A stretch of DNA of 64,000 nt from positions 119,725 to 183,724 of the forward strand of contig NZ_JABRPL010000004.1 of the NCBI RefSeq assembly GCF_013249015.1, written 5' to 3'. The notes under the pieces were generated by a model. The model was not told the origin of the DNA and did not search any database. It saw nothing but the letters and a program-made list of their open reading frames with translations. This DNA is from Rathayibacter agropyri. GTDB taxonomy: Bacteria > Actinomycetota > Actinomycetes > Actinomycetales > Microbacteriaceae. Shown here piece by piece: positions 49,652 through 64,000 of the stretch. Made by a program: the position numbers and the translations under genes. How positions within the stretch are numbered: position 1 is the first letter of the stretch; every line of letters starts with the position of its first letter.

Positions 49652-50866
49652 ATGAACCGGATCACCGTCGCCCTCCTCGCCGCCTTCGACGCCGCGCTGT
49701 CGGCGCTCATCGGCATCGCGATCCCGCTTGTCCCACTCACCGTCCTCTGGGCCGTCCAGTACGACACCGCCGTTGACTGGGGCGTGTTCTGGCGCATCGC
49801 CGCCGACTCCTGGCTGCTCGGCCACGGCGCGGACCTGCAGGCTGGCCTGGCCCCCGACTCCGCCCTGGCCCTGGGGTTGCCTGGCGGCACGGAGCGCTTC
49901 GCCGTGACCATCGCGCCACTGGCCTTCTCGTTGCTCACCCTGGTCCTCGGCGCACGCACGGGCAGGCGTGCGCAGGAGTCGCCGTTTCGTTCCATCGGAA
50001 TCCTCGTCTCGATCGGCACGTACTTCCTTCTCGCGCTCCTCGTCGTGCTCAGTTCCCCGGACTCTGCGGTGGCCGTCGATCCCGTGCAGGGAACGGTGCT
50101 GCCGCCCCTGGTCTTCGCGCTCGGCGTGCTGATCGGCTCGGCACTGCACTCCGCGGGCAGCGGCGAGGGGGACCGGATCGGCGAGTTCGCCGCGGAGTCC
50201 CTGCACCGCCTCCCCGAGCCCGCGCCCGGCCTGATCCTCGCGTCACTGCGCGGCGGCGCCCTGGCAGCGGCGGGCGTGATCGGCGCGGCGGCTGTGCTGG
50301 TCGCGGTGCTCCTGGTCGCGAACTACACCGCCGTGGTCGCGCTGTACGAGGGACTGGGCGGCGAGGCGCTCGGCGGCTTCACGCTGACGCTGGGGCAGCT
50401 GGCATTCGTCCCCAATCTCGTGATCTGGGCCGCGAGCTGGCTGATCGGACCCGGCTTCGCGCTCGGAGCGGGTTCCTCCGTGAGCCCGGCGGGCACGCTG
50501 CTTGGACCGATCCCGTCGATCCCGGTACTCGCGGCGCTGCCGCAGGGCGATTCGGCCCTCGGTTTCCTCGGCCTGCTCGTGCCTGTGCTGGTGGGTTTCG
50601 CCGCCGGATGGCGCCTGCGTCGCGCCGTGCTCGACGCCCTCGACGGCCGCTCGCTGCTGCGCTGGGGCGCCGCGGCTGCCGTCGGCATCGGAGTCGTGGG
50701 TGGGCTGCTGCTCGGGCTGCTCGCCTGGTTCTCGGCGGGGGCCGCAGGGCCGGGGCGGCTCGCGCAGGTCGGGCCGGACCCACTGGTGGTCGGGGCCGTC
50801 GCGGCCCTCGAACTGGCACTCGCGGCCGGGATCGGGCTCGCCGCCGGTCGCACCCCGCGCGGCTGA
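49652..50866 (+). CDS. DUF6350 polytopic membrane protein
   Basis: A 404-aa protein with about nine to ten helices and almost no soluble domain. The N-terminus MNRITVALLAAFDAALSALIG and the LPGGTERF and GSSVSPAG segments fit the DUF6350 family. This family occurs next to sucCD and upstream of purN/purH in many actinobacteria. Function unknown. Conserved synteny stops at its 3' end: transposon remains begin about 20 nt later. Confidence 0.82.
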   Translation: MNRITVALLAAFDAALSALIGIAIPLVPLTVLWAVQYDTAVDWGVFWRIAADSWLLGHGADLQAGLAPDSALALGLPGGTERFAVTIAPLAFSLLTLVLGARTGRRAQESPFRSIGILVSIGTYFLLALLVVLSSPDSAVAVDPVQGTVLPPLVFALGVLIGSALHSAGSGEGDRIGEFAAESLHRLPEPAPGLILASLRGGALAAAGVIGAAAVLVAVLLVANYTAVVALYEGLGGEALGGFTLTLGQLAFVPNLVIWAASWLIGPGFALGAGSSVSPAGTLLGPIPSIPVLAALPQGDSALGFLGLLVPVLVGFAAGWRLRRAVLDALDGRSLLRWGAAAAVGIGVVGGLLLGLLAWFSAGAAGPGRLAQVGPDPLVVGAVAALELALAAGIGLAAGRTPRG

Positions 50867-50884: not shown

Positions 50885-51190
50885 CCAGAGTCGCGATGCG
50901 CGTCGACCTTGGCCTTGGTCAGGTGCGCATCGTCCCAGTCACGATCGGGAAAGGGCACGATCGGGAAAGGGCACGATCGGGAAAGGGCCGCTTCTTCCAG
51001 GCGTCAATGGCCTGCTGCGAGAAGCCCACAACCCGGCAGGCTGCGGCGATGGCGATCCCGTCAACGACAACGTCAAGGTCAGCGGGAACAGAATTCCGCG
51101 CAGACCTCGCACGAAGAGAAATACGCCAACGCCCGCCGCATCACCTCCGTTTTTTGCGCCAGGAGGCGATTCCGACGCTTCAGGTCGCGC
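50885..51190 (-). pseudogene. IS3-family remnant: orfA 3' end and orfB 5' end
   Basis: Read on the minus strand, about 51187-51110 gives RDLKRRNRLLAQ and EVMRRALAYFS, matching the coiled-coil end of IS3 OrfA. About 51080-50890 gives ACRVVGFSQQAI and later RDWDDAHLTKAKVDAH, matching the start of IS3 OrfB (usual ACRVLGFS and RDWDDAHL). The OrfB part breaks off near 50890, so most of orfB is missing. A 16-bp tandem triplication disrupts it internally. The missing orfA start is found at 52427-52552. Confidence 0.7.
50941..50988. repeat. 16-bp tandem repeat, three copies
   Basis: ACGATCGGGAAAGGGC is repeated three times without interruption. It lies within the orfB remnant and expands the sequence before RDWDDAHL. 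It looks like replication slippage in an already dead gene. Confidence 0.9.
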
Positions 51191-51214: not shown

Positions 51215-51989
51215 TCTTTTCTGGATGAAGAAGATGAGTTCGCGGACGGCGTTGGAAGCGTCTCGGAAGGTGCGCAGTGGCCGCCTGTAGCCGGTGCGGA
51301 GTATCCGCCAGGTCTTGATGTTAGCGATTGTTCGCTCGATCATGTATCGGTGAGTGTTGACGAAGCGATTGTGTTCTTTCGCTTAATCCGGCAGATGTTC
51401 TTCGCCTCGTTTCTTTTTCATCGGTGTGACCAATCCGGTGCCTTGGTAGCCTTTGTCGGCCAGCGTGGTCGAGAGGTTGAGGACGTCGGCTAACCCGGTT
51501 TCTCGAAAGGCGTGGGCATTGTGGTGCTCGCCCGCGATCAGACCGAGATATGGACCGACCGACCGGAGAGATCCGCGAGGACCTGGGAGTTGTGCCCTGT
51601 GGTCTTGTGTGCCCTGCGGTCTTGTCTGTGGGGGAGTACAGCTCGGGTGCGTCTGCCCAGGACCAGCACAGGAGCAGGGTGCCGTCGATGACGGCCGTCG
51701 TCTCATCGAGCGCGGCCTTGACATGCGGCTGCTCGTCATCGGCAACGACATTAAGCATCGCTCCCATCAACGCGATCGTCCGCGACACGGTCGACTGTTG
51801 GATACTGACCACATTAGCGATCAACTGCTCGGTGATATTTTGGCGATAGTAGAGAAGGGTGACATGCAGCGCTCCCACGAGCGAGAGCTTGCGTGGCCGT
51901 CCTCGACGCCACATGAATTCGTTCTCGATCCGTTCGGCGAGGATCGCGTAGTGCTGGGTGGTCATTGCTGTAGTAGTCCGTGTGCTCAT
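51215..51989 (-). pseudogene. IS5-like DDE transposase, inactivated
   Basis: The N-terminal part MSTRTTTAMTTQHYAIL... with the HTH region (RRGRPRKLSLVGALHV, QQSTVSRTIALMG) and the first catalytic segment AVIDGTLLL is intact. A 17-bp tandem duplication (51591-51607 and 51608-51624) then shifts the frame. A one-base loss near 51546 shifts it again into GEHHNAHAFRETGLADVL. A TAA at 51383-51385 replaces a sense codon before AKEHNRFVNTHRYMIERTIANIKTW (given as AKEHNRFVNT and MIERTIANIKTW). Three lesions make activity implausible. Confidence 0.8.
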
Positions 51990-52051
51990 CGGCGGGGTCC
52001 TTTGCGAAGAGTTTCTGTCGCATGTTGCTCTTCCATAAGGCTCATGCAAGC

Positions 52052-52118
52052 TTCAGGTCAAGCGCCACAAAAGCCCTGGTCGGAGGTCCGTTCGTTGAGC
52101 ATGCATGGATACTTTGCA
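52052..52118. repeat. 67-bp direct repeat, copy A
   Basis: Copy A shares 62 of 67 bases with 52351-52417 (core GAGCGCCACAAAAGCCC in copy B, and GGTCGGAGGTCCGTTCG in both). It lies just upstream of the transposase start, so it is probably part of the native end of the IS element. Confidence 0.8.
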
Positions 52119-52335: not shown

Positions 52336-52425
52336 GAGGCTTCTGCACAATTCAGGTTGAGCGCCACAAAAGCCCTGGTCGGAGGTCCGTTCGTTGAGCA
52401 TGCAAGGGTATTTTGCATAAACCTC
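52336..52425. repeat. 90-bp MITE-like unit containing repeat copy B
   Basis: It begins GAGGCTTCTGCACAATTC and ends TTTTGCATAAACCTC. These ends are inverted versions of each other and of the IS terminal repeat. The centre is the 67-bp sequence also present at 52052-52118. It has no coding capacity, as expected for a miniature derivative mobilised by the IS transposase. Confidence 0.6.
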
Positions 52426-52825: not shown

Positions 52826-53116
52826 ATGGCTCAGATTAGTGTTACGCCCGAAGAACTGAAGCAGCAGGCTCAGGTCTACACCCGCTCGAAGGAAGAGATC
52901 GAGCAGGCCATTCAGAAGGTGAACCAGATGAACTCGACCATTGGTGAGGAGTGGAAGGGTCAGGCGTTCCAGGCGTATCTCGAGCAGTACAACCAGCTTT
53001 CCGAGAGCGTGAAGAAGTTCGAGGAGTTGCTGGTGAACATCAACGAGCAGTTGAACAAGTACGCGGACACCATTGCTGAGCGTGACGCGCAGGATGCGCA
53101 GAGCTTCGGCTTCTAG
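52826..53116 (+). CDS. EsxA-like WXG100 protein
   Basis: A 96-aa helical hairpin protein with the W-x-G turn in GEEWKGQAF (W43). The flanking helices are rich in Gln, Glu and Lys (SKEEIEQAIQKVNQMN, LEQYNQLSESVKKFEELL). It starts with TPEELKQQAQVY, close to Bacillota EsxA/YukE, and is normally secreted as a dimer by the type VII machine. It ends DAQDAQSFGF; the DAQDAQ motif recurs at the C-terminus of the small protein at 60663-60950. It is the first gene of the operon. Confidence 0.93.
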   Translation: MAQISVTPEELKQQAQVYTRSKEEIEQAIQKVNQMNSTIGEEWKGQAFQAYLEQYNQLSESVKKFEELLVNINEQLNKYADTIAERDAQDAQSFGF

Positions 53117-53633
53117 CAGCTTCCCGGGCGCAGAAGACTCGGCACGGCGATCTCTCCTCGCGAGAGGGTTGTGTGCAGGTGCGTTTGCTGTCGCGGTGAC
53201 GGTAAGCGCACCTGCTTTCGCGTTCGCCTCCGATGACGACGGTGAGGGGCGGCTGAATCTTGACACCACTGTTCTCGTGAACGAGTCGGTGGGCGCCGGT
53301 TCCACGGGAGACTTCGCGATTCGTGGTGACCTGTTCTCCGCGGATGTTTCTGCGAGGGCGCACAAGGAGCAAGAGGCGGCGGCTGGCCGGCTGACGGTCG
53401 CCAACACCCTGGACTTCGCGCACGTGGAGACCAGCGTGGCCGACTATCAGCAAGTCCGGGCGGCACTGTTCGGTGACTACTCGTCGCGAGAGGCGCCCAC
53501 GGCGACGCAGGAGGAGAGCGAAGCGTCTCCCGTGTTGTACGGCGCAGCAGCTGCGGTGGTGGTGCCGCTGGTGCTGGTGGCGGGCGTGCTGCTGGGGAGG
53601 TTCTGGGCGAGGAGAAAGCGGGCGGCGGTGTGA
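53094..53633 (+). CDS. EssA-like membrane protein of the type VIIb-like system
   Basis: The protein has a signal-peptide-like segment (LLARGLCAGAFAVAVTVSAPAFAFA in parts), an external domain of about 110 residues and a C-terminal helix (LYGAAAAVVVPLVLVAGVLLG) ending in RRKRAAV. This layout, its size and its place between esxA and the YukD-like gene match EssA. Sequence identity to EssA cannot be judged by eye. The start is uncertain: ATG 53094 (179 aa, overlapping esxA), GTG 53082 or TTG 53169 are all possible. The 3' end overlaps the next gene by 4 nt. Confidence 0.6.
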   Translation: MRRASASSSFPGAEDSARRSLLARGLCAGAFAVAVTVSAPAFAFASDDDGEGRLNLDTTVLVNESVGAGSTGDFAIRGDLFSADVSARAHKEQEAAAGRLTVANTLDFAHVETSVADYQQVRAALFGDYSSREAPTATQEESEASPVLYGAAAAVVVPLVLVAGVLLGRFWARRKRAAV

Positions 53634-53863
53634 TCGAAGTCACCCTGGAGCATGCGGGCAAGCAGGTCGACCTGCTGGTGCCCGGCGAGGTCACGTTCGA
53701 TCGGCTGACGCAGCTGATCCGGGATGGCTGTGCGGCGAGGGGAATGGTGCTGCCCGAAGGGTTCTCGTTAGCGCTCGATGACAAAGCCCTCGCCGTGAGC
53801 GGCTACGACGTCATCTCGTCGTTCGGGATCGGCAACGGTGACCGTCTCCAGATTCAGACTTAA
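53630..53863 (+). CDS. Ubiquitin-like EsaB/YukD protein
   Basis: A 77-aa beta-grasp-looking protein, VIEVTLEHAGKQVDLLVPGEVTFDRL, ending GIGNGDRLQIQT. YukD/EsaB is the small cytoplasmic ubiquitin-like component of type VIIb systems. Length and position directly before the EssB-like gene fit. GTG start in a 4-nt overlap. Confidence 0.82.
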   Translation: MIEVTLEHAGKQVDLLVPGEVTFDRLTQLIRDGCAARGMVLPEGFSLALDDKALAVSGYDVISSFGIGNGDRLQIQT

Positions 53864-53876
53864 GAGTGAGTGAGTG

Positions 53877-55016
53877 ATGCGCATTACTGTGGAGGGCACA
53901 GCTCTCGAACTCGATCAAAGCCCTGATGCCCTTCATGTGGGTCTGGAAAAGAACGGGTTTGACGGCTCGTGTCTGGATGTGATCGCTCGATACGTCGATA
54001 TGCACGAGACCGATACGGGGATCGCGCTCGACTATGCTCTCGCGGCAGGTGAGATCAGCTTCCGGGAGGCGATCGGCCGGGCGCGGACGCGGCTGGATCG
54101 GCTGCTCTTGGCTCAGAGCCTGGTGGCCTGTGTCCGCTACCGGGGTGGTCTCGCGGTGCCGTTGATTCACCCTGACAATGTGTATCTGTCCGGTGGCCTC
54201 CTCCGGGTGGTGCATGTCGGGTTGCAGGGCATGCTCGCTCCGATGGTGTTCGATGAGGCACGGTTCCTCGCTTCGCTGCAGGCGATGGTGTTGCAGGTGT
54301 TCCGTCCCAAGCTGACGTTCGAGCAGCTCGTGGACGGGGCGGCGGCTCTGCGGGACAAGTTCTCGACCGTGGTGACGCACGCCACCACGACAGACGAACT
54401 GTTCTCGTGCATTGATGCGCAGGTGAGAGCCGAGCAGGCGGATGTCGCAGCGACCAAGGTGAGCGTCTCCAAGCGCCGGTACTCGTGGTATCGCGTGCTC
54501 GGCGTGCTCGGCCTCGTCGCGGCGCTGGCCGCCGGCGCATTCGCCTGGCAGACAGCGTCGCAGAACCGTGTGCAGGCCGCGGTGGTTGCCGGCCAAGCCC
54601 GGTTCCTCGCGAGCGACTATGCGGGCACGCTGGCCGAGTTGCACGATTTCGCAGCTCCGTCGTTGCCTGCGTCTGCAAAGTATGTGCTGGCGGTGTCGAG
54701 CGTCAATCTCCACGATCTCACGGCGACGCAAAAGCAGAAGATTCTGAATACGATCTCCCAAAAGACCGACGATGTGACGTTGAACTATTGGATCGCGATG
54801 GGTCGCGGTGAATTCGAGCAGGCTCTCGATTACGCCAAGAACCTCGGCGACGATCAGCTCACTCTATTGGCTTACACGGATCTGTATCAGGCGACGAAGC
54901 TGGATACCCAGATGGCTGGTGGCAAGAAGCAGGAACTTCTCGACGAGGACGCGAAAGCGATCGAGGAGTTGACCGCGAAGCTCGGCGGCACCGGCGACAC
55001 GGCAGGCAAAAAATGA
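53877..55016 (+). CDS. EssB/YukC-like pseudokinase membrane protein
   Basis: A 379-aa protein with a cytoplasmic N-terminal part of about 200 residues resembling the YukC pseudokinase fold (AVPLIHPDNVYLSGGLLRVVHVG in parts). One helix spans about 204-226 (VLGVLGLVAALAAGAFAW), and a helical external domain rich in Ala, Gln and Lys follows. This is the EssB topology; EssB bridges EssC to the rest of the secretion channel. ATG 53877 is preferred to the adjoining GTG 53874. The stop overlaps essC (ATGA). Confidence 0.85.
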   Translation: MRITVEGTALELDQSPDALHVGLEKNGFDGSCLDVIARYVDMHETDTGIALDYALAAGEISFREAIGRARTRLDRLLLAQSLVACVRYRGGLAVPLIHPDNVYLSGGLLRVVHVGLQGMLAPMVFDEARFLASLQAMVLQVFRPKLTFEQLVDGAAALRDKFSTVVTHATTTDELFSCIDAQVRAEQADVAATKVSVSKRRYSWYRVLGVLGLVAALAAGAFAWQTASQNRVQAAVVAGQARFLASDYAGTLAELHDFAAPSLPASAKYVLAVSSVNLHDLTATQKQKILNTISQKTDDVTLNYWIAMGRGEFEQALDYAKNLGDDQLTLLAYTDLYQATKLDTQMAGGKKQELLDEDAKAIEELTAKLGGTGDTAGKK

Positions 55017-58000
55017 GCGTGTCCGACACGGAGCAGCCGGTGAGTGTCCAGCGCGCGGGACTCGATTCCCGGCTCGTCCCGGCCGAGCTGCTATTCCTGG
55101 TGTACGTACTGGACGATCAGCGCGCGATCAGGCTGTCGCTCACCGAGGAGCGTCCCTTTGTCGAGCATCAGGGTCATAAGTTCAGTGTGATCAACGACCT
55201 GCTCTATGTCGACGGCGAGAAGCTCAGCGCCGGGCTGCAGGGCGTTGGCGCACTGGAGTGCGTGGTGGTGCCAGCCGCCCGCGCGCGCACGGTGACGTTC
55301 ATCATCGATGGTCGCAGCGACTTCGTCATCGGCGACGACCCGAATGCCGGTATCAGGGTCGCGGATTCGCCGTTACTGGTCCTGCATGACGACGTGCTGA
55401 TCGTTGACCCCCGCGACCAGCTCGTGTTCGTGAACGGCGTCCTGGTCCGCGGGAGGCAGGTCTGCGATCTCGTTGTCGGCACGGTGGTGCTCACTGCCGG
55501 CTACCTCGTGGAGAAGCGTCCGGCCCAGTTCAAGCTCACCAGCTTCGGGCCGGGGGCCGTGGTCGACCCCGCGAAGGCGTTGGTGCAGCCTGCGGTGCGG
55601 GAGTTCCCGGAAGGGTTCCCCGACTATCGGAGGTCCCCGAAGCTGAACGTGGAGGTCCGCGAGGCTGAGTTCCGGCTGCAGGGGCCGGACAAGCCGCCTT
55701 CGAAGCCGAAGAACCGGTTGATGCGGCTGGTCTTGCCGCCGTTCTTCATGATCGCGGTAGCCGGTGTGACGGTGATGATCACCGGCAGCAACCCGGCGAT
55801 GATCCTCGGTATGGGGCTCGCGACCCTGCTGACGGCATCGTTCACGGTGTCGCAGTACGTCACCGAGAAAGCGGAGACGAAAGTGGCCGCGCTCACGCAG
55901 GAGGAGGACTACGCCGGCTACCTCGTCAGGACCGTTGCCGCAGTGACCCAGGCACACGACGAGGAGGGCGACGTACTGCGATATCAGCAGCCAAGCCCGC
56001 GGGAACTTATCGACCTGGTCGAGGTGTACGACCGCAGGATCTACGAGCGTCAACGCTTCAACAAAGACTTCCTCCACGTCTCCCTCGGATACTCCGACCG
56101 CCCGTCGGTGCTGTCGGTGTCCTCCGATGTGAATGACAAAGACGCCAGCGACGAGGCGCGGCAGGTCGCAGAACTCGCAGCGGGGTTCCAGACGCAACGC
56201 GACGCCCCGACACCGGTTGGGCTGATGGGGCAGACCCTCGGATTCGTCGGCCCGCCGGAGGTCGTCCAGGCCCAGTTGCAGGCAGTGCTGTTCCAGACGG
56301 CGTTCTTCCACTCGTACCGTGACGTGAACGTTGTCAGCCTCATCTCCCGTGAGGCGTATCGGCAGACGTGGCGTGCGTGGCGGCTGTTGCCGCATTTCAG
56401 GATGCAGGAGCTGAACATGCGCGGGCTCGTGTACAACGACAGACTGCGCGACATCGTGTTGAACAGCTTTTACCAGCTGCTGCAGAAGCGGAAGCAAGCG
56501 GTCAAGGACGCAGGCACGCAGAAGCCCCAGTTCGCGCCGCACTACGTGTTCACGATCTGCGACGACCGGCACCTCGCCGGCCACGGCATCAACGAACTGC
56601 TCGCCGAGGACATGAGCGAGTTGGGGGTGACGGTGATCTGGTGCAGCGAAGACGCGAAACTCCTGCCCGAGACGGTCACCGCTCTCATTCAGGCGCCGAA
56701 CTTCGTGAAAGGCGAACTCGTCACCAATGCTGACGTGTACGTTGCGACGCCCTTCGTCCCTTACGGCGTGCCGTCGAATCTTGAGCATTCACTGCGGAAG
56801 CTGTCGAACCTGAACCACCTTGAGGTCGAGAAGAACGCCGTGCCGGAGACGTTGACCCTGCTGGAGCAGTACGAGGTCACGACCGTCGAGGACCTGCAGA
56901 TCGCGCAGCGGTGGGACAGGGCCGAACCGAACAAGTCGATCGCGTCGCTGATCGGGTGGCGCGGCCGATCCGACTCCGTGTACTGGGATTTGCACGAGCG
57001 CGCCCACGGTCCGCACGCGCTGGTCGGCGGTACCACCGGATCCGGCAAGTCCGAGTTCCTGACCACGTACCTGATCGGGCTTACGATCAACTTTTCCCCG
57101 GAAGACGTGGGGATGCTCATCATCGACTGGAAGGGCGGTGGCATCGCTAACACGCTCGACAAGCTGCCGCACTTCATGGGCGCCATCACCAACCTCGATG
57201 GCGCGGGCACGGCGCGGGCGCTGGCGAGCATCAAGGCGGAGCTGAACAAGCGCCAGCGCGAGTTCGCGGTGTACGGGGTGAACAGCATTAACGCGTACAT
57301 GAGCCTGTACAAGCACCGGCACGCCCCGAAGCCTGACGTGAAGTACCCGTCGAAGCCGTTGCCGCATCTGGTGCTGGTGTCTGATGAGTTCGCGGAGCTG
57401 AAGGCGAACGTGCCGGAGTTCCTCGACGAACTCACCTCGGTCGCCCGCATCGGTAGAAGCCTTGGCGTGCACCTGATCCTTGCGACACAGAAGCCCAGCG
57501 GTGTGGTCAACGACCAGATCGAGGCGAACTCGACGTCGAAGATCGCGCTCAAGATGGCGAGCGAACAGGACTCGAACGAGCTGTTGAAGACCACCGATGC
57601 GGCCCACATCACCAACCCGGGGCGCGGCTATCTGAAGGTCGGGCAGAACGAGGTCTACGAGCTGTTCCAGAGCGGCTACGCCGGAGTGCCGTACGACCCG
57701 GACGCGGTCGTCACCGAGCAGGTGGATGAGCGGATCTACACGATCAACGAGGTCGGCCAGTACGAGCTGTTCTACGACCCCGACGAAGAGGTCGAACAGG
57801 GCAAAGACACCAGCGATCTGCCCTCACAGCTCGAAGCCGTCATCGACGCCATTGCCACCATCTTTACCGGCGACCCCAGGCTTGAGCTCCCGGACAAGCC
57901 GTGGCTACCGAACCTTGCCGAGAACATCGCCGCTCCGGAACCCGCAGGATCCGGTCTGCGCGTGCCCTTGGGCATGCTCGATATCCCGTCTCGGCAGGCG

Positions 58001-59494
58001 CAGGAGAGCTACGACTTCGACCTCGCGAAGGCTGGGCACACGGTTCTCTTCGGCAGCCCCGGCTTCGGCAAGTCGACCGTGCTGCAGACCCTGACGATCG
58101 GCCTCGCCACGACGTCGACGCCTGAGCAGGTGCAGGTCAACCTCATCGACTTCGGGAACAACGGTTTGCTGCCGCTGCGCGGCCTCCCCCATGTCGCCGA
58201 TATCGTCACGCTCGAAGAAAGCGAGAAGCTCGGCAAGATGCTGGAGGGAATCGGTGGCGTGCTGGCGGCGCGGAAGCAGTCGTTCAGAGACGCCGGTGTC
58301 GCGAATCTGGAGCAGTACTCCGCGAAGACCGGTCGGCGCCTCCCAGTCGTGGTGAACGTGCTCGACGGATACGACAACCTCACCGCGAACGATCGGCGTA
58401 AGGAGCAGATCGACGACCTGCTGCTGCAGGTGCTCCGCGAAGGCGCCGGCCTCGGCGTCTATCTGGTCATGAGCGCAAGCCGGGTCGGCGGAGTACGCGT
58501 GAACATGCTCAGCAACATTTCCACGAAGCTGAGCCTGTACCTCAACGACGAGAGCGAACTCGCCCAACTCATGGGCCGCGAACGGCTGCTGCAGGTCGAC
58601 ACACTCGGCCGAGGACAGGTGATCGTGGAGACGCCAACCGCGATCCAGTTCTACCAACCGGCTCCCGGCGAGACCAGCGCCGAGACGCTCGCCGCGCTCG
58701 AAGCGCAGGTCGCCGCCCTCGACGCCGCCTGGACGGGGAAACGGCCTGCGCGGATCCCGATGGTGCCGCGGGAGCTCACGCCGGAGGCGTTCGCCGGCTT
58801 CGCGACGGTCACGACCGTCGAGAGCAAGGGCGGCGTGCCGTTGGCGTTGTCGAAGGCCACCACCGAGGCACGCGGGTTCTTGCCGCGCTCGCAGCCGTTC
58901 TTCCTGTTCGCCGCCAAGGACGACGAGCAGGAACTCCTCTTCCAGCAAACCCTGCTCACTCAGGGCGGGAGGGTGAACACCGACTTCCTTGTCATCGACT
59001 TCGACGAGCGATTCGACGACGCACTCGAGCGCACGCCGCTGCCCGCGAACTTCAGCTACATCACGAGCAAGAGCGACGCGAGCGAGATCGTCGCCGGCAT
59101 CGTCGCGTACCTGAGCCTCAACAAGCAGAAGGTTCAGGGCGCCCCTCTGGTGCTCGTGATCGCGAACCTGCCCGACTTCATCGCCAGCACCGGGGTAAAA
59201 CCGGACGACTTTGTGCTGGCGGTGAAGAACACCTTCAAATCAGGGCTGGACTTCATGATCTTCAGTAGGCACGACTACCTTGCCAAATCGTTCGACCCGG
59301 TGCCCAAGCTTCTGCGGGAACAGAAGTTCACCGGCTTTGTCGGTGCTCGCGCCTACGACAGCCCGCTGGTGAAGGGCATGGGCACGTCGACCGAGCCGGA
59401 GCCGAGCATCGACGAGCCGTACTTCGTGTTGCGCGGCGGCAGCGCCTTCGAGAAGGTCAAGCTTCCGCAGGCCCAGGAGCAGGCGCATGACTGA
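55013..59494 (+). CDS. EssC/YukBA-type FtsK/SpoIIIE ATPase
   Basis: The motor of the type VIIb-like machine, 1493 aa in a single chain. An FHA-like N-terminal region (about 75-180, FVIGDDPNAGIRVADSPL) is followed by two membrane helices (about 238-285). Then come ATPase domain D1 with Walker A GGTTGSGKSEF (about 672) and LIIDWKGGG, and D2 with GSPGFGKSTVLQTL (about 1014). A degenerate D3 (FLFAAKDDEQELLFQQTLL) has no P-loop. One fused chain with FHA domains is the EssC plan; ESX EccC lacks the FHA domains. It overlaps the next gene by 8 nt. Confidence 0.93.
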   Translation: MSVSDTEQPVSVQRAGLDSRLVPAELLFLVYVLDDQRAIRLSLTEERPFVEHQGHKFSVINDLLYVDGEKLSAGLQGVGALECVVVPAARARTVTFIIDGRSDFVIGDDPNAGIRVADSPLLVLHDDVLIVDPRDQLVFVNGVLVRGRQVCDLVVGTVVLTAGYLVEKRPAQFKLTSFGPGAVVDPAKALVQPAVREFPEGFPDYRRSPKLNVEVREAEFRLQGPDKPPSKPKNRLMRLVLPPFFMIAVAGVTVMITGSNPAMILGMGLATLLTASFTVSQYVTEKAETKVAALTQEEDYAGYLVRTVAAVTQAHDEEGDVLRYQQPSPRELIDLVEVYDRRIYERQRFNKDFLHVSLGYSDRPSVLSVSSDVNDKDASDEARQVAELAAGFQTQRDAPTPVGLMGQTLGFVGPPEVVQAQLQAVLFQTAFFHSYRDVNVVSLISREAYRQTWRAWRLLPHFRMQELNMRGLVYNDRLRDIVLNSFYQLLQKRKQAVKDAGTQKPQFAPHYVFTICDDRHLAGHGINELLAEDMSELGVTVIWCSEDAKLLPETVTALIQAPNFVKGELVTNADVYVATPFVPYGVPSNLEHSLRKLSNLNHLEVEKNAVPETLTLLEQYEVTTVEDLQIAQRWDRAEPNKSIASLIGWRGRSDSVYWDLHERAHGPHALVGGTTGSGKSEFLTTYLIGLTINFSPEDVGMLIIDWKGGGIANTLDKLPHFMGAITNLDGAGTARALASIKAELNKRQREFAVYGVNSINAYMSLYKHRHAPKPDVKYPSKPLPHLVLVSDEFAELKANVPEFLDELTSVARIGRSLGVHLILATQKPSGVVNDQIEANSTSKIALKMASEQDSNELLKTTDAAHITNPGRGYLKVGQNEVYELFQSGYAGVPYDPDAVVTEQVDERIYTINEVGQYELFYDPDEEVEQGKDTSDLPSQLEAVIDAIATIFTGDPRLELPDKPWLPNLAENIAAPEPAGSGLRVPLGMLDIPSRQAQESYDFDLAKAGHTVLFGSPGFGKSTVLQTLTIGLATTSTPEQVQVNLIDFGNNGLLPLRGLPHVADIVTLEESEKLGKMLEGIGGVLAARKQSFRDAGVANLEQYSAKTGRRLPVVVNVLDGYDNLTANDRRKEQIDDLLLQVLREGAGLGVYLVMSASRVGGVRVNMLSNISTKLSLYLNDESELAQLMGRERLLQVDTLGRGQVIVETPTAIQFYQPAPGETSAETLAALEAQVAALDAAWTGKRPARIPMVPRELTPEAFAGFATVTTVESKGGVPLALSKATTEARGFLPRSQPFFLFAAKDDEQELLFQQTLLTQGGRVNTDFLVIDFDERFDDALERTPLPANFSYITSKSDASEIVAGIVAYLSLNKQKVQGAPLVLVIANLPDFIASTGVKPDDFVLAVKNTFKSGLDFMIFSRHDYLAKSFDPVPKLLREQKFTGFVGARAYDSPLVKGMGTSTEPEPSIDEPYFVLRGGSAFEKVKLPQAQEQAHD

Positions 59495-59930
59495 GGAACA
59501 GGAGCTGCTGCCCCTCGGGACGGCCGTCGAGATCGAAGGCGACGACGGCATCTACGTCATCATCGCCCGAGGCTTTCAGAAGCATGACGACGGCTTCCTC
59601 GCCGGTTACAAGGGTGTGCCCCATCCGCAAGGCGCGGCGGCCGGAGTGCGCGAGATCGTGATTCGACAGACGCAGATCACGAACGTCATTCACCGCGGCC
59701 ACAGCAACGACGAAGACACAGCGTTCGCGGAAGATCTGCTCGAGAAGGCGAAGATCCCGCCCAAGGTCTCGCCCCCTCCCGCCGCGGAGCCCGCCCTGAC
59801 CGTCGACCTCACCACACCCGCCGCTCTCCCTCCACCGGCTGCGGCCGAGGGCGCGGGAGCGCCACCCAATAGAGCGAAAAATGCCGCAGACCCATTTAGT
59901 GAGCTTCGACGTAAAGGAAGACAAGTATGA
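59487..59930 (+). CDS. DUF4176-type protein 1
   Basis: A 147-aa protein. The first 95 residues carry the DUF4176 pattern (LLPLGTAVEIEGDDGIYVIIARGF, with YKGVPHPQGA and QTQITNVIHRG). The tail is Pro/Ala-rich and ends NAADPFSELRRKGR. DUF4176 proteins accompany LXG toxin genes in Bacillota and are thought to help deliver the toxin to the secretion machine. A second copy follows at once. Confidence 0.75.
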   Translation: MTEEQELLPLGTAVEIEGDDGIYVIIARGFQKHDDGFLAGYKGVPHPQGAAAGVREIVIRQTQITNVIHRGHSNDEDTAFAEDLLEKAKIPPKVSPPPAAEPALTVDLTTPAALPPPAAAEGAGAPPNRAKNAADPFSELRRKGRQV

Positions 59931-60331
59931 CTGATTTGCATCCTGACTCCCGGCCCCTGGAGAGCCGCACGTTCTTGCCGTTGGGAAGTGTGGTGATTCT
60001 GAATGGTTCGGTGAAGAAGCTAGTGATCGTCAGTCGAGGGTCGATCGTCGAGGATGTGTTCTTCGACTATGGCGCGTTCCTGTACCCGGAGGGCCTGATC
60101 CACACGAATATCGCCTATTTCAACCAGGACGACATTATGACGACCGTGCACGAAGGGTACCGGGACACGGACGACGAACTGGCCGTCGACATGTTGAACG
60201 ATGCCCACACTCGATTCCAGCAGAAACGAAACGAATCGGTCTCCGCTTCCGTCCCGGTAGCGTCCGCTGCCAGGGCCGCAGAGGACGACCCGTTCGCCAG
60301 TGTGCGGGACCTGGGAGATGACGATGAATGA
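59927..60331 (+). CDS. DUF4176-type protein 2
   Basis: A 134-aa paralogue of the upstream gene with the same opening, FLPLGSVVILNGSVKKLVIVSRG, then YGAFLYPEGLIHTN and IMTTVHEGYRDTDDE. It ends with an acidic tail (DDPFASVRDLGDDDE) sharing the DPF motif with its neighbour. ATGA overlap with the previous gene. Confidence 0.75.
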   Translation: MTDLHPDSRPLESRTFLPLGSVVILNGSVKKLVIVSRGSIVEDVFFDYGAFLYPEGLIHTNIAYFNQDDIMTTVHEGYRDTDDELAVDMLNDAHTRFQQKRNESVSASVPVASAARAAEDDPFASVRDLGDDDE

Positions 60332-60641
60332 GGACCAGGCGTTGGCGCAGGTGCAGGAACTCGACGAGGTCATCGCCCAGCTGGACACGGTGCGCAGCAA
60401 TGTCGAGGCGTTCCGTGTCGATGACTACAAAGATGCGGGAGGGGCGCAGTGGGCGGGGCAGGGACGCACCCGATTCACGGCCGCTGTCGACACTGCGAAG
60501 TCGAACTTCGAACAGATCGGTGAGCAGATCGAGCAGGCCATCAGTGATTGCAAGAGCAAACAGCGCACGCTCGCTTTTTCGATCAATCCGCTTGAGCATC
60601 CGGCTCTTTCCGTGCAAGCCGTCGCGATCGCGCTGAACTAA
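60324..60641 (+). CDS. Small W-x-G helical protein (LXG accessory)
   Basis: A 105-aa, almost wholly helical protein with GGAQWAGQGRTRF. The W-x-G tryptophan is at residue 43, as in the EsxA-like protein. Position directly before the toxin suggests a toxin-targeting partner like the DUF5082/DUF5344-type helical proteins of Bacillota LXG operons. GGGAG lies 8 nt before ATG 60324; ATG 60318 is an alternative. Confidence 0.7.
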   Translation: MNEDQALAQVQELDEVIAQLDTVRSNVEAFRVDDYKDAGGAQWAGQGRTRFTAAVDTAKSNFEQIGEQIEQAISDCKSKQRTLAFSINPLEHPALSVQAVAIALN

Positions 60642-60662
60642 ACAGGCACAAGGAGGTATCAG

Positions 60663-60950
60663 ATGGTGGACGCCGGTACGCGAGGTATTCGCGATGGGTT
60701 TCATGACGAGACCCGGAATGTCTCTGCGCTCACGTCTCGTGTGGCAGAGACCAAGGATGGGTGGAATCGGGGAGACGGTCTGAACGTGACCGGCACCACG
60801 GTTGTGTCGGAGATTTATTCCGAGCTGTCGACGTTGATCGCGTCGTATGGTGCCGCGGCGCAGAAGGACACGAACGAGTTCGACCAGCTCGGAGTGAATA
60901 TCGAAGTGCAGGACGCGCAGGATGCGCAGGGCGGCGAGGTGTCCGAGTGA
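60663..60950 (+). CDS. Small helical protein upstream of the LXG toxin
   Basis: A 95-aa protein starting MVDAGTRGIRDGFHDETRNVSAL, helical, with a Gly/Asn turn in the middle (GWNRGDGLNVTG). It ends IEVQDAQDAQGGEVSE. It probably corresponds to the second helical accessory protein of LXG operons. The DAQDAQ motif matches the end of the EsxA-like protein. It has the strongest ribosome binding site of the locus (AAGGAGGT). Its stop overlaps the toxin start (GTGA). Confidence 0.7.
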   Translation: MVDAGTRGIRDGFHDETRNVSALTSRVAETKDGWNRGDGLNVTGTTVVSEIYSELSTLIASYGAAAQKDTNEFDQLGVNIEVQDAQDAQGGEVSE

Positions 60951-62920
60951 GTGTGGTGGAGTTTTCTGCGGATTCGTGGCAGGCGTCGTCTCCGGGGTTG
61001 CAGAAGAGTCTCGCGGATCGGGTTGAGGCGCTTGAGGCGCTCCTGCAGGGGCTTCAGAGTCTGGCGGCCTCGGGGAATATCAGTGGTCAGGGTGCGGATG
61101 CGATGCGTGCGTATCTTCGGGAGGTGCATGTCCCGATCGTGCAGTCGCTGTTGGTGTGTCTGTCGACGTTCCAGACCGCGATCGGGGTGTATTGGAACGG
61201 ATACTCCCAGGTGGACACGGACGGGAACTTCCGGCTCGTGAACGACGAGTTCGACGCGCACCGTGTCCAGCTTGATACCGGCATCGAGCAGTTGCGCGGG
61301 TTCGCCGCCGACTTGCGGTCGATTGCTGCGAGCGCGTCGCATCTGGTGTCGTTGGACGGCGCGGGCGCTGGCGCGGCCGATGCCGCTGCGGAGGGTTTCG
61401 AGCGGATGCGGTCGATTGTGACGTCTCAGCAGGAGACGTGGGCGGCGTATGAGGCCACGGATCCGGGGTTCGGTCAGGTGAAGAACCTTGTGGCGGAGTT
61501 GAACCGGGTGGTCGCGAACCTGGGGAGTCTGACTGTCGGGCAGGGACGCTCCTACGTGTCGGGGAGCTTTAATCTGACGTTGCGGACGTTGGGGGAGTTG
61601 ACCGGGGGGATGCTGGATTACTGTCGGGAGAATCAGCAGGCTGCGTCCGATGGGTGGGACAGCTTGTTCTCTGGGTATGTCGAGGATGTTGAAGCGGAGC
61701 AGGATCGGCAACGGAAAGAGGATGCCCTGTGGGGGGTGTTGTGGGATGGGATCCAGGTCGTTGAGGGTGTGGTGATTGTCGCGGTGGGCGTGGTGGGTAC
61801 GCCGTTCAGCGCGGGCGCGACGTTGGCGTTCGCGGGGCTGGGTGGGTCGCTGATCGTTGGGGGTGTGAACAGCGCGATTGACGACGCATCGATCGCGTCG
61901 ACCGGTGAGGGGTTGAATCTGGTCGGGATGGCCAGCGATCAGGTGGCCCAATGGTATGACGTCACTGTGATGCAGCCGGCGGTCGAGTCCGGGTCATGGG
62001 CGGGGCAGTTCGTCGCGAGTGTCGGGTCGGGTGTCGGGCAGGTGATGAGCGGTGCGGCGCAGATGAATTTGCGTGACACGGGGCGTGGGATCGAGGCCCT
62101 CATGTTCGACGAGGATGTGCGTAACGAAGCGTTGCAGCAGGTCACGACGCTCGTTGACCAGGTCCGCGCGGGGAACCCGGTTGTGATCGGACAGATCGTT
62201 GGGAACATTGTGCCAGGGGCGGCGGCGTTGAAGATCGCGAAAACGACCGGACTTGTGGGCGAGGCGAACAAATTCGCTGACTTCGCGAAACCCATCATCA
62301 CGAACCCGAGCAGGACCACCAGTGCCCTGGACTGGCTCAAGAACCAGATCGGCGCGGGCGGGGTGACAGTCAGCGACGAATTCGAGCCGACAATACGACC
62401 AGCAGACCGCATTGACGGGTCGACCGTGAAGTCGGATAGTGTCGACCAGCCGGGCGGGAGTAATGCTCCGGGTCCGGTGAAGTATCCGACTGGCCGGTTG
62501 CCGAAGCGTGGTGTACCGAACTCTTTCGGGTATGATTCTGACGGGGTTCGTCTTCCCTACGCGAATAGTCGCCCTGATTACGCGCCCGGACAAGTCAAAA
62601 GGGTGTGGAGGGAAACCCGGAAGAAACAAGTGAGCGACATCAGGGCCGGCGAACCGGGGGCGCCGCCGAGGTGCCCCAAGCGGCATCAGCTCTGGGTCAA
62701 AGACAAGTCAGGCGACTGGAAACTTATCAAGTGGCGACCCGGAGAACCCCGCGCTGGCCTCTGGGACATGGGACACCTCCCACGGGCCGAATATGCCAAA
62801 CTTCGAAACCGGTACCTCAATCATGAGATTACGAAGAAAGAATTCTTGGATCAATATCACAACGCGGAGAATTATCAAGTTGAAGATCCGGGCAGAAACC
62901 GGTCCCATATCGATGAATAG
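60947..62920 (+). CDS. LXG-domain toxin with GH-E nuclease tip
   Basis: A 657-aa secreted toxin candidate. Residues 1 to about 210 form an LXG domain: long helices, ISGQGADAMRAYLREVHVP, then LVCLSTFQTAIGVYW. A hydrophobic stretch (about 265-310) and a helical middle region follow, then a Pro/Gly linker near 495-520. The tip (about 525-657) has WDMGHLPRAEYAKLRNRYL and EFLDQYHNAENYQVEDP, the GH-E pattern of HNH/EndoVII-type nucleases, with H610 and E615 as likely active-site residues. A DNase is inferred. No signal peptide, as expected for type VII export. Base composition is visibly less GC-rich in the tip. Confidence 0.88.
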   Translation: MSVVEFSADSWQASSPGLQKSLADRVEALEALLQGLQSLAASGNISGQGADAMRAYLREVHVPIVQSLLVCLSTFQTAIGVYWNGYSQVDTDGNFRLVNDEFDAHRVQLDTGIEQLRGFAADLRSIAASASHLVSLDGAGAGAADAAAEGFERMRSIVTSQQETWAAYEATDPGFGQVKNLVAELNRVVANLGSLTVGQGRSYVSGSFNLTLRTLGELTGGMLDYCRENQQAASDGWDSLFSGYVEDVEAEQDRQRKEDALWGVLWDGIQVVEGVVIVAVGVVGTPFSAGATLAFAGLGGSLIVGGVNSAIDDASIASTGEGLNLVGMASDQVAQWYDVTVMQPAVESGSWAGQFVASVGSGVGQVMSGAAQMNLRDTGRGIEALMFDEDVRNEALQQVTTLVDQVRAGNPVVIGQIVGNIVPGAAALKIAKTTGLVGEANKFADFAKPIITNPSRTTSALDWLKNQIGAGGVTVSDEFEPTIRPADRIDGSTVKSDSVDQPGGSNAPGPVKYPTGRLPKRGVPNSFGYDSDGVRLPYANSRPDYAPGQVKRVWRETRKKQVSDIRAGEPGAPPRCPKRHQLWVKDKSGDWKLIKWRPGEPRAGLWDMGHLPRAEYAKLRNRYLNHEITKKEFLDQYHNAENYQVEDPGRNRSHIDE

Positions 62921-62942
62921 AAATTGAGAAGAGGAGGACAAT

Positions 62943-63509
62943 ATGACATCTCCGAGTCATGCTGCTGAATATGGGACATATGAGGAGTTTTGTGCCGTCT
63001 ACGATCCCGCTACCATGCCGTTCACCCCGAGGCCTGGCGTAGATGGGCTCCTCGGCGGCGCTGTGGTGAATAAGGATCCTCGGGCGCGGTTGGCGATCGC
63101 GAATCGTCTGCTCGATGATGGCGCGGATCCCAGTCTGGTGAGCGCTGATGGTGATCGTATCAATGTGTTGCACGCGTTGTGGGGTCGCAGGCAGGTTCGC
63201 GACCCCGAAGCGGAAGCGGCGCTGATCGGACGGTTGTTGGACGGCGGGGCGGACATTAATCTGCGCTCACCCAGGTTCGGTCTTCCACTGACGATGCTTG
63301 TCACGGATATTTCGGCCAGCCACGAATATTTGCGGGCCGTATTTGCTGCGGTCACGGCGCACTCTCGACCTGACTTGACGGCGCATGTCGATCGGCGGCG
63401 TCAGGCCAGCGTGGGGCAGTATCTTGCGCAAACCAAGTCTGGTTTCATGCGTGATGAGGTTCGTGCGTATGCTGCGGCGACCGGGCAAGATATCGACGTG
63501 ATCTCATGA
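62943..63509 (+). CDS. Ankyrin-repeat-like candidate immunity protein
   Basis: A 188-aa protein directly after the toxin. It contains ankyrin-like units: ARLAIANRLLDDGADPSLVS with DGDRINVLHALW, then LIGRLLDGGADINLRS. Ankyrin-type proteins are a known immunity class for nuclease toxins, and the position suggests protection against the GH-E tip. GAGGAGG precedes the ATG. It overlaps the next gene by 4 nt. Confidence 0.75.
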   Translation: MTSPSHAAEYGTYEEFCAVYDPATMPFTPRPGVDGLLGGAVVNKDPRARLAIANRLLDDGADPSLVSADGDRINVLHALWGRRQVRDPEAEAALIGRLLDGGADINLRSPRFGLPLTMLVTDISASHEYLRAVFAAVTAHSRPDLTAHVDRRRQASVGQYLAQTKSGFMRDEVRAYAAATGQDIDVIS

Positions 63510-63877
63510 GCCAGAAGCAGGGTATGGAGATTATACCTCAAGCAGGGGCTTGTTTGATGACGGTGAACGCGTGGGAGGGCCGCGCTCCAGTGCGGTGGAT
63601 GCTACGGGAGCGGTCGAACGCACCTGTCGACAATGGCTGGCGTATCATGAGCGCGGCGGACAGCAGTGAGTACCTCGCCGACTCGACCAACTGGCGCATC
63701 ACCGATTTCAATGATGCCTGCGAGATCGAGCCCGCTCTGATCGGCATCTACGATCTACCTGTCGGAAGCGATCTACAAATCGTCATCGACGAGCACGGCA
63801 CACGCATCGTCGAAACGCCGACCGGTCGAGAACTGACACCCGAGAGAATGTATGTCCCACCACGCCACCGACGCTGA
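63506..63877 (+). CDS. DUF2185-like candidate immunity protein
   Basis: A 123-aa protein with VRWMLRERSNAPVDNGWRIM, DSSEYLADSTNW and IGIYDLPVGSDLQIVIDEHG, which resembles DUF2185 (Imm33-like) immunity proteins. It could protect against the same toxin, or be left over from an earlier toxin tip. ATGA overlap with the ankyrin-like gene. Confidence 0.7.
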   Translation: MSQKQGMEIIPQAGACLMTVNAWEGRAPVRWMLRERSNAPVDNGWRIMSAADSSEYLADSTNWRITDFNDACEIEPALIGIYDLPVGSDLQIVIDEHGTRIVETPTGRELTPERMYVPPRHRR

Positions 63878-63904: not shown

Positions 63905-63919
63905 TTTGCATAAGCCTCC
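63905..63919 (-). repeat. Lone IS-end-like motif
   Basis: TTTGCATAAGCCTCC matches 14 of 15 bases of TTTGCATAAACCTCC at 52412-52426, the right end of the IS5-like element and its derivative. No transposon body is attached on the left. The two motifs bracket the whole secretion and toxin operon as a short direct repeat. Confidence 0.5.
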
Positions 63920-64000
63920 AGGCGGGCCACTGGTATGACGTCACGGTGATGCAGCCGGCGGCCGGGTCGGGGTCGTGGGCGGGGCAGTTCGTCGCGAGTG
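63920..64000 (+). pseudogene. 5'-truncated duplicate of the LXG toxin middle region
   Basis: From about 63929 the sequence reads WYDVTVMQPAAGSGSWAGQF and then VAS, close to residues about 334-356 of the toxin (WYDVTVMQPAVESGSWAGQF). The alignment begins abruptly just after the IS-end-like motif, so there is no LXG domain or start. It continues past the window edge and probably leads into an alternative toxin tip. Confidence 0.8.

Follow-up and report, generated by a model that had tools for sequence, protein, structure and literature searches.

Type VII secretion systems (T7SSs) are divided by phylum into T7SSa (ESX) of Actinomycetota and T7SSb of Bacillota, and this split is also drawn in a 2024 survey and a study of June 2026 (PMC11217815, PMC10765036, PMC13355648). 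T7SSb has been characterised in Streptococcus intermedius, Staphylococcus aureus and Bacillus subtilis. Its six core parts, EsxA, EsaA, EsaB, EssA, EssB and EssC, are always encoded (PMC10765036), and EsxA is needed for export (PMC13355648). In S. aureus, the C-terminal variants of EssC each go with their own downstream genes (PMC4788903). A further type, T7SSd, is described from Olsenella and Bifidobacterium, with no ubiquitin-like gene reported in its loci (PMC11217815). In the open-licence literature searched, up to June 2026, we found no report of T7SSb in Actinomycetota; a paper on Rathayibacter toxicus mentions T7SS proteins in a passage that leaves their type unnamed.

Here we describe a T7SSb operon, esxA-essA-yukD-essB-essC, on the + strand of a 64-kb stretch of actinobacterial DNA (the window, which always means the whole stretch analysed), within positions 52826-63877. 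The genes 3′ of essC encode two DUF4176 proteins, two Lap-like partners, a toxin with LXG and GH-E domains and two candidate immunity proteins (Table 1). Over a segment of 1413 bases, the window has 91% identity to the type strain of R. iranicus (G006) and 80-87% to the other 14 genomes of our genus sample, so the host is a Rathayibacter close to R. iranicus. Judged from its sequence, the locus is confirmed as a real T7SSb of the Bacillota type, a known class of system in an unexpected phylum. We consider it highly probable that Microbacteriaceae acquired it from a Lactobacillales-like source and that it is carried on an island.

The closest systems are the T7SSb of Lactobacillales, with Enterococcus sp. 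MMGLQ5-1 (L006) nearest. They encode the same EsxA, YukD, EssB and FHA-bearing EssC, with an EssA that can be aligned to the window's EssA-like protein, and the order esxA-essA-yukD-essB-essC-DUF4176-DUF4176-Lap-Lap-LXG is common to the window and the Enterococcus locus, where EssC is 61% identical. The differences lie in the actinobacterial host and in EsaA, described below.

Secretion machinery

All genes named in the initial annotation were found at their positions on the + strand, and the models it proposed for EssB, YukD, EssC, LXG and DUF4176 scored above cut-off. A lack of matches to the EssB, EsaB and LXG models, which it had given as one possible refutation, was thus not observed. EssB reached 207.5 bits with PF10140/YukC (cut-off 27.4) and 253.4 with T7_EssB (TIGR03926, cut-off 229.75). 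YukD had 30 bits with PF08817 (cut-off 27); the equivalog NF052661 was not reached (14.6 vs 100). EsxA is 85% identical in Lactococcus (L005) and in the Enterococcus locus. Solved chains of YukB, EccC, EssB and YukC were matched by window proteins in phmmer searches.

EssC had been called a single-chain, FHA-containing protein of Firmicutes type, and this reading held. The equivalog T7_EssCb_Firm (TIGR03928) was passed with 1335.7 bits (cut-off 778.4) and FtsK_SpoIIIE gave 166 bits, while the scores for EccCa (383.9 vs 509.15) and EccCb (276.4 vs 346.55) stayed below their cut-offs. FHA was recognised through a structure model: residues 1-216, predicted by AlphaFold2 from an alignment of 14 sequences (mean predicted local distance difference test, pLDDT, 81), had 5fwh as best fold match (E 8.7e-9, template modelling score 0.58/0.65), and the matches with E<0.001 were solely solved EssC N-termini (5fwh, 9qks from the B. 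subtilis T7b core unit, and 1wv3). According to this model, the N-terminus of EssC carries FHA domains in a one-chain ATPase.

That the locus is instead an actinobacterial T7SSa or T7SSd has a negligible probability. Both types are found in this phylum, and the locus has a WXG100 protein and an FtsK-type ATPase like T7SSa, the ATPase core of EssC being common to EccC. However, a tblastn search of the window with five T7SSa proteins (two EccC, EccB, EccD and an S8 peptidase) gave the EssC-EccC match only, in agreement with the annotated absence of other Ecc and mycosin genes, and EssC is far from EccC in the tree described below. In T7SSd, too, the ATPase bears FHA and an LXG-like protein is a candidate substrate (PMC11217815), but the locus encodes the ubiquitin-like YukD and EssB, and its relatives encode EsaA. 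The alternative was thus rejected by model scores, EssC tree and tblastn, with T7SSd set apart by gene content only.

Phylogeny and transfer

The full-length tree of EssC and EccC contained 37 rows, the window and 36 of 45 loci; those omitted were mostly pieces (L009, L013, L015, L017, L024, L027, L028, L030 and L031). The EssC and EccC sides are held apart by a long branch (2.94 changes per column, support 100). A position inside actinobacterial EccC had been named beforehand as a possible refutation, and the window's EssC lies outside it. Other carriers in Microbacteriaceae, for which the same check was proposed, do exist and form two EssC clades that group with T7SSb. The window belongs to a clade of nine Microbacteriaceae, with 18 Bacillota rows (Lactobacillales or unassigned metagenome-assembled genomes, MAGs) as its sister group; a further three Microbacteriaceae (G142, G281, G394) diverge outside these two groups.

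A second tree was made from the EssC core (the first ~1300 residues; 28 rows, outgroup three canonical Bacillota), also without the four EccC-side rows and L014, L016, L020, L021 and L052. Here the window clade (eight rows) is placed inside Lactobacillales, beside Enterococcus sp. MMGLQ5-1 and S. cuniculi, with supports of 95-100 along the path. The EssB tree (45 rows, with 13 of 32 canonical Bacillota loci) has both actinobacterial clades among Bacillota. A single actinobacterial clade was rejected by approximately unbiased (AU) tests, made after the first tree was known, for EssC (p 2.25e-5) and EssB (p 0.019), so Microbacteriaceae probably acquired the system at least twice. As these are quick trees and most Bacillota rows were chosen because they resemble the window, both the donor and the count of transfers are provisional.

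The loci L051, L053 and L054 represent a second, deeper T7SSb lineage of Microbacteriaceae, with a long EsaA encoded divergently from essB. A contig of a Lachnospiraceae MAG was considered as a nearer donor (82% identity over 304 EssC residues) and discarded; this stretch is conserved, and the Enterococcus protein is 86% identical there.

EsaA

No esaA gene lies between esxA and essC. The idea of an "EsaA-less T7SSb" was refuted by matches to TIGR03929 above cut-off in 12 of 12 T7SSb-positive genomes of Microbacteriaceae. In total, 33 of the 34 genomes searched had such a match (the exception is G1120). The model also catches YhgE/Pip-type relatives, all scoring below cut-off.

The gene is placed differently from that of Lactobacillales. 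In four near Lactobacillales (G1117, G1118, G1119, G1121) esaA is found ~8-16 kb downstream of essB, likewise not beside esxA. In Microbacteriaceae it either closes the island at its far end, on the opposite strand, or is divergent from essB. Its distance to essB is ~10-17 kb in G005, G073, G194 and G003 and ~33 kb in G008, and it adjoins essB divergently in G142, G281 and G394. In G001 it is located just upstream of an esxA near the contig end.

EsaA of the window's clade is also shorter, with 638-686 residues in nine frames (L073 238-2163, L116-L123) compared to 922-967 residues in three frames of the second clade and two of Lactobacillales. The short form lacks ~300 internal residues, the loss lying around its residues 380-408. 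By hydropathy, 12 of 14 frames have a membrane stretch at each end, and L118 and L120 have the C-terminal one only.

Effector module and immunity genes

The toxin had 38.4 bits with the LXG model PF04740 (cut-off 26.5) and 68.3 bits with GH-E PF14410 (cut-off 25). The LXG model matched all six aligned members, the window's included, and in relatives the LXG N-terminus is retained and the toxin end exchanged. By its domains, the protein agrees with the pattern of LXG polymorphic toxins, an N-terminal LXG followed by a variable C-terminal toxin.

The first of the two genes behind the toxin (62943-63509) encodes a protein with no match in Pfam or NCBIfam. Its phmmer matches were chain RBL7 (E 3.6e-10) and RNase L (E 0.002), both of which we take to be ankyrin-type repeats. 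Imm-ank is listed as an immunity partner of Tox-GH-E in a table of PMC3482391, a pairing that fits the order of toxin and ankyrin-like gene here, although the ankyrin assignment is weak; unlike in that pair, an additional Imm33 gene follows. The toxin with immunity genes of the initial annotation was thus recovered, with LXG, GH-E and Imm33 above cut-off and an ankyrin-like candidate adjoining.

The small helical partners that it had named are present as two Lap-like genes, but their family models remained below cut-off. In the family of the first (60318-60641), two of six aligned members match YwqH-like (best E 8.8e-6). Two of six members of the second (60663-60950) match TIGR04197 weakly, and its structure model is helical with low confidence (mean pLDDT 60). 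This family has an invariant C-terminal I-x3-D instead of F-x3-D, the FxxxD motif of characterised Lap1 proteins (PMC9600955). We would call both partners Lap-like only; the second falls short of the Lap1 family by model score and motif.

The EssC C-terminus was compared in 45 EssC/EccC sequences. Of these, 11 are pieces no longer than 1246 residues, and some of the pieces stop short of the C-terminus. A window-like C-terminal part (>150 bits) was found in eight of the 45. Six of these have the matching module as well (L049, L001, L007, L062, L006, L023), and the contig of L051 stops shortly behind the two DUF4176 genes. Homologues of Lap2 and LXG-N occur together in seven loci, six of the eight and L009, where the EssC frame is broken. 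In the EssC core, Leifsonia Root227 (L003) is closer to the window (74.8% identity) than the Enterococcus locus (61.6%). In the C-terminus the Enterococcus protein is 60.2% identical and no window-like part was detected in Leifsonia Root227; of the two, only Enterococcus has Lap2 and LXG homologues. The EssC C-terminus co-varies with the effector module across phyla, in a pattern like that of S. aureus, and it varies with the module within Lactobacillales as well.

In B. subtilis, YwqH-YwqI-YwqJ consists of two small helical partners followed by an LXG toxin. The two partners before the toxin in the window resemble this arrangement, one of them also by its YwqH-like family, but here the module directly follows the machinery operon and includes two DUF4176 genes.

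The export machine would be formed in the membrane by EssC, its FHA part docked on EssB, together with EssA, YukD and the distantly encoded EsaA. Following the roles given to DUF4176, Lap and the EssC C-terminus in PMC10765036, PMC9600955 and PMC4788903, the toxin would be brought to EssC with its Lap-like partners and the DUF4176 factors and then exported, and EsxA would itself be exported and be required for export. The LXG protein could carry its GH-E nuclease into neighbouring bacteria and cut nucleic acid there; how LXG toxins enter a target cell is not known even for those studied so far (PMC9600955). The ankyrin-like and Imm33 proteins would neutralise the toxin in the producer.

Rathayibacter lives with grasses and nematodes, an association that could point to effectors aimed not at bacteria but at eukaryotes such as the plant or the nematode vector. 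The T7SS of Group B Streptococcus has also been reported to mediate cytotoxicity (PMC8675928). However, arrays in which LXG toxins stand next to immunity genes are typical of weapons used between bacteria (PMC10765036, PMC3482391), and we regard eukaryotic targets as quite improbable.

Distribution

We used EssB above cut-off as the marker of T7SSb in the genome samples. It was found in three of 15 genomes of the genus sample and nine of 398 of the family sample, in several genera and with a patchy distribution; the annotated rarity in the family is thus borne out. The order sample (1/347) and the phylum sample (1/396) contained EssB in the centre genome itself only. Among Lactobacillales, 55 of 198 genomes were positive (65 at E 0.001).

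The system could alternatively have been inherited vertically from a common Gram-positive ancestor and lost in nearly all other actinobacteria. Its presence in several genera of one family would agree with this, as would the host-like codon composition: GC content at third codon positions (GC3) is 0.869 in EssC, 0.887 in a host gene and 0.312 in the Enterococcus EssC. The counts for order and phylum, the EsxA identity and the gene order in common with Lactobacillales speak against it, as does the rejection of a single actinobacterial clade, and we judge vertical inheritance very improbable.

EccD, a marker of T7SSa, was present in one of the 12 T7SSb-positive Microbacteriaceae, Leifsonia sp. 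71-9 (G002, L044). It was found in 0 of 14 control genomes, so its absence from the other 11 is read against a single positive. On a Streptomyces plasmid (L076, 4031-8795), a WXG100 gene stands beside a single-chain FtsK-type protein with a very long branch in the tree; no EccD or EssB was among its listed neighbours.

Microbacteriaceae in which each of the six core T7SSb genes has a homologue (for EssA by alignment only) break the phylum rule and suggest that such weapon systems have been transferred between phyla. They are a natural experiment on the changes that the machine needs in order to function in a different cell envelope, with EsaA, which is thought to span the wall, visibly altered. 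A wider scenario, for which we see an even chance, is that a working and complete T7SSb crossed from Lactobacillales-like bacteria at least twice, so that the split into T7SSa and T7SSb by phylum fails, that the larger lineage lost ~300 middle residues of wall-spanning EsaA as an adaptation to the different envelope, and that the machine drives a growing LXG/immunity array against close relatives. The Leifsonia isolates Leaf336 (L007) and Root227 (L003), from leaf or root by name, might serve as models of LXG warfare in plant microbiomes.

Island site and composition

The empty site was seen in two genomes without detected EssB, where DUF6350 is followed by purN after 31 bp (G019) and 55 bp (G014). 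A third genome, G012, also has no EssB found, and purN adjoins DUF6350. The site is occupied in G008, where 36,675 bp (an island of ~36.7 kb) separate DUF6350 from purN on a 3.1-Mb contig. There esxA starts ~470 bp after DUF6350, without the transposase remnant that the window has at this place, and is followed by the rest of the T7SSb operon, an LXG array, two insertion sequence (IS) copies and esaA on the - strand, adjoining purN. In the type strain of R. iranicus, esaA is beside purN on one contig and an esxA start follows DUF6350 at the end of another. DUF6350 and purN were not found in the examined stretches of G001 (VKM Ac-2855), the Leifsonia loci, G073 and G194, so nothing points to a common site in these. 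Contamination was rejected, as the operon is joined to chromosomal genes without a break both in the window and on the 3.1-Mb contig, and several genera carry the system.

An island in decay that no longer secretes is unlikely, although some traces would fit. An IS remnant lies beside esxA, LXG cassettes are truncated, and the EssC frame is broken in the draft contig of the R. iranicus type strain (L009) and in L052 (G194), possibly by assembly errors. Against decay, all window frames from esxA to the Imm33 gene are open, full-length identity to the G008 proteins is 95% for EssC and 93% for EssB, and in the stretches of G008 examined there are five LXG-N frames with changed ends (two ending in GH-E, three otherwise), besides two GH-E frames without LXG-N.

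Several observations weigh against the acquisition of a T7SSb from a Lactobacillales-like source. The full-length EssC tree has Lactobacillales as sister and not as nest of the window clade, which makes the direction of transfer less sure than the relationship. GC3 of EssC is already host-like, so the transfer would not be recent; in favour of acquisition, the island has a lower overall GC (0.631 and 0.606) than the rest of the window (0.681), and the patchy presence and the occupied and empty site also speak for it. IS remnants and truncated cassettes occur within the island. In an even sample of Bacillota, EssB is uncommon as well (4/299 with the centre counted, 6 at E 0.001), so the phyla cannot be told apart by rarity alone. 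Co-variation has exceptions in L054, with a matching EssC C-terminus and no module, and L053, with an LXG-N match and no matching C-terminus. The window itself contains no esaA gene and ends inside the second LXG cassette after 82 bases. The weak points in the gene assignments are the small partners, with 19 bits for WXG100 (cut-off 27.3) in the first and 17.9 for TIGR04197 (cut-off 26) in the second, EssC, where the Pfam scan gave no FHA domain, and EssA, the one proposed model without a match in the window. Among 10 aligned EssA proteins scanned with TIGR03927, two passed the cut-off of 32.45 bits (Enterococcus 35.5, Lactococcus 45.9), L012 and L051 matched below it and six, the window's included, had no match. 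The window protein was identified as EssA through its aligned orthologues, with which it has a central motif in common.

Gene organisation

Table 1. Coordinates of the T7SSb locus and its neighbours in the window
Feature	Position	Strand	Evidence or remark
DUF6350 membrane protein, chromosomal, left island border	49652..50866	+	PF19877 280 bits
IS transposase remnant (HTH_Tnp_4/DDE_Tnp_4 pieces) between DUF6350 and esxA	51321..52049	-	PF13613 29.8 bits (cut-off 27); PF13359 16.7 bits, below cut-off
EsxA, WXG100 protein	52826..53116	+	PF06013 65 bits, TIGR03930 73.2 bits
EssA-like small membrane protein	53073..53633	+	start codon uncertain, probably 3′ of 53073
EsaB/YukD ubiquitin-like protein	53630..53863	+	PF08817
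EssB/YukC pseudokinase membrane protein	53874..55016	+	PF10140, TIGR03926
EssC, single-chain FHA-FtsK/SpoIIIE ATPase	55013..59494	+	TIGR03928, fold, trees
DUF4176 protein 1, putative targeting factor	59487..59930	+	PF13780 52.9 bits (cut-off 25)
DUF4176 protein 2, putative targeting factor	59927..60331	+	PF13780 72.4 bits (cut-off 25)
Small helical partner, WXG100/YwqH-like	60318..60641	+	ATG at 60318 or 60324
Small helical partner, DUF3130/TIGR04197-like	60663..60950	+	
LXG toxin with C-terminal GH-E (HNH/EndoVII) nuclease domain	60947..62920	+	GTG start at 60947
Ankyrin-like candidate immunity protein	62943..63509	+	weak phmmer matches
Imm33 immunity-domain protein	63506..63877	+	PF09951 64.5 bits (cut-off 25.4)
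Beginning of second LXG cassette (only its middle portion), truncated at window end	63919..64000	+	90% identical to 61940-62021

The genes had been described as one run with overlaps of 4-8 nt, which is correct for most junctions. Overlaps of 4 nt connect essA/yukD, essB/essC, the two DUF4176 genes, the second Lap gene with the LXG gene and the two immunity genes; essC and the first DUF4176 gene overlap by 8 nt, and the second DUF4176 gene overlaps the first Lap gene by 8 or 14 nt depending on the start codon. The description fails at the spacers between yukD and essB (10 nt), the two Lap genes (21 nt) and LXG and the first immunity gene (22 nt), and for esxA/essA it hinges on the essA start.

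A 15-base motif resembling an IS end is found at 52412 (IS end before esxA) and at 63905, just before the truncated LXG cassette, in the same orientation and with one base differing, as if IS recombination had cut the second cassette. Two 81-bp copies (52038-52118 and 52337-52417), 88% identical and 299 bp apart, lie between the transposase remnant and esxA. By eye, a 16-bp unit is repeated three times at 50940-50987, directly after DUF6350.

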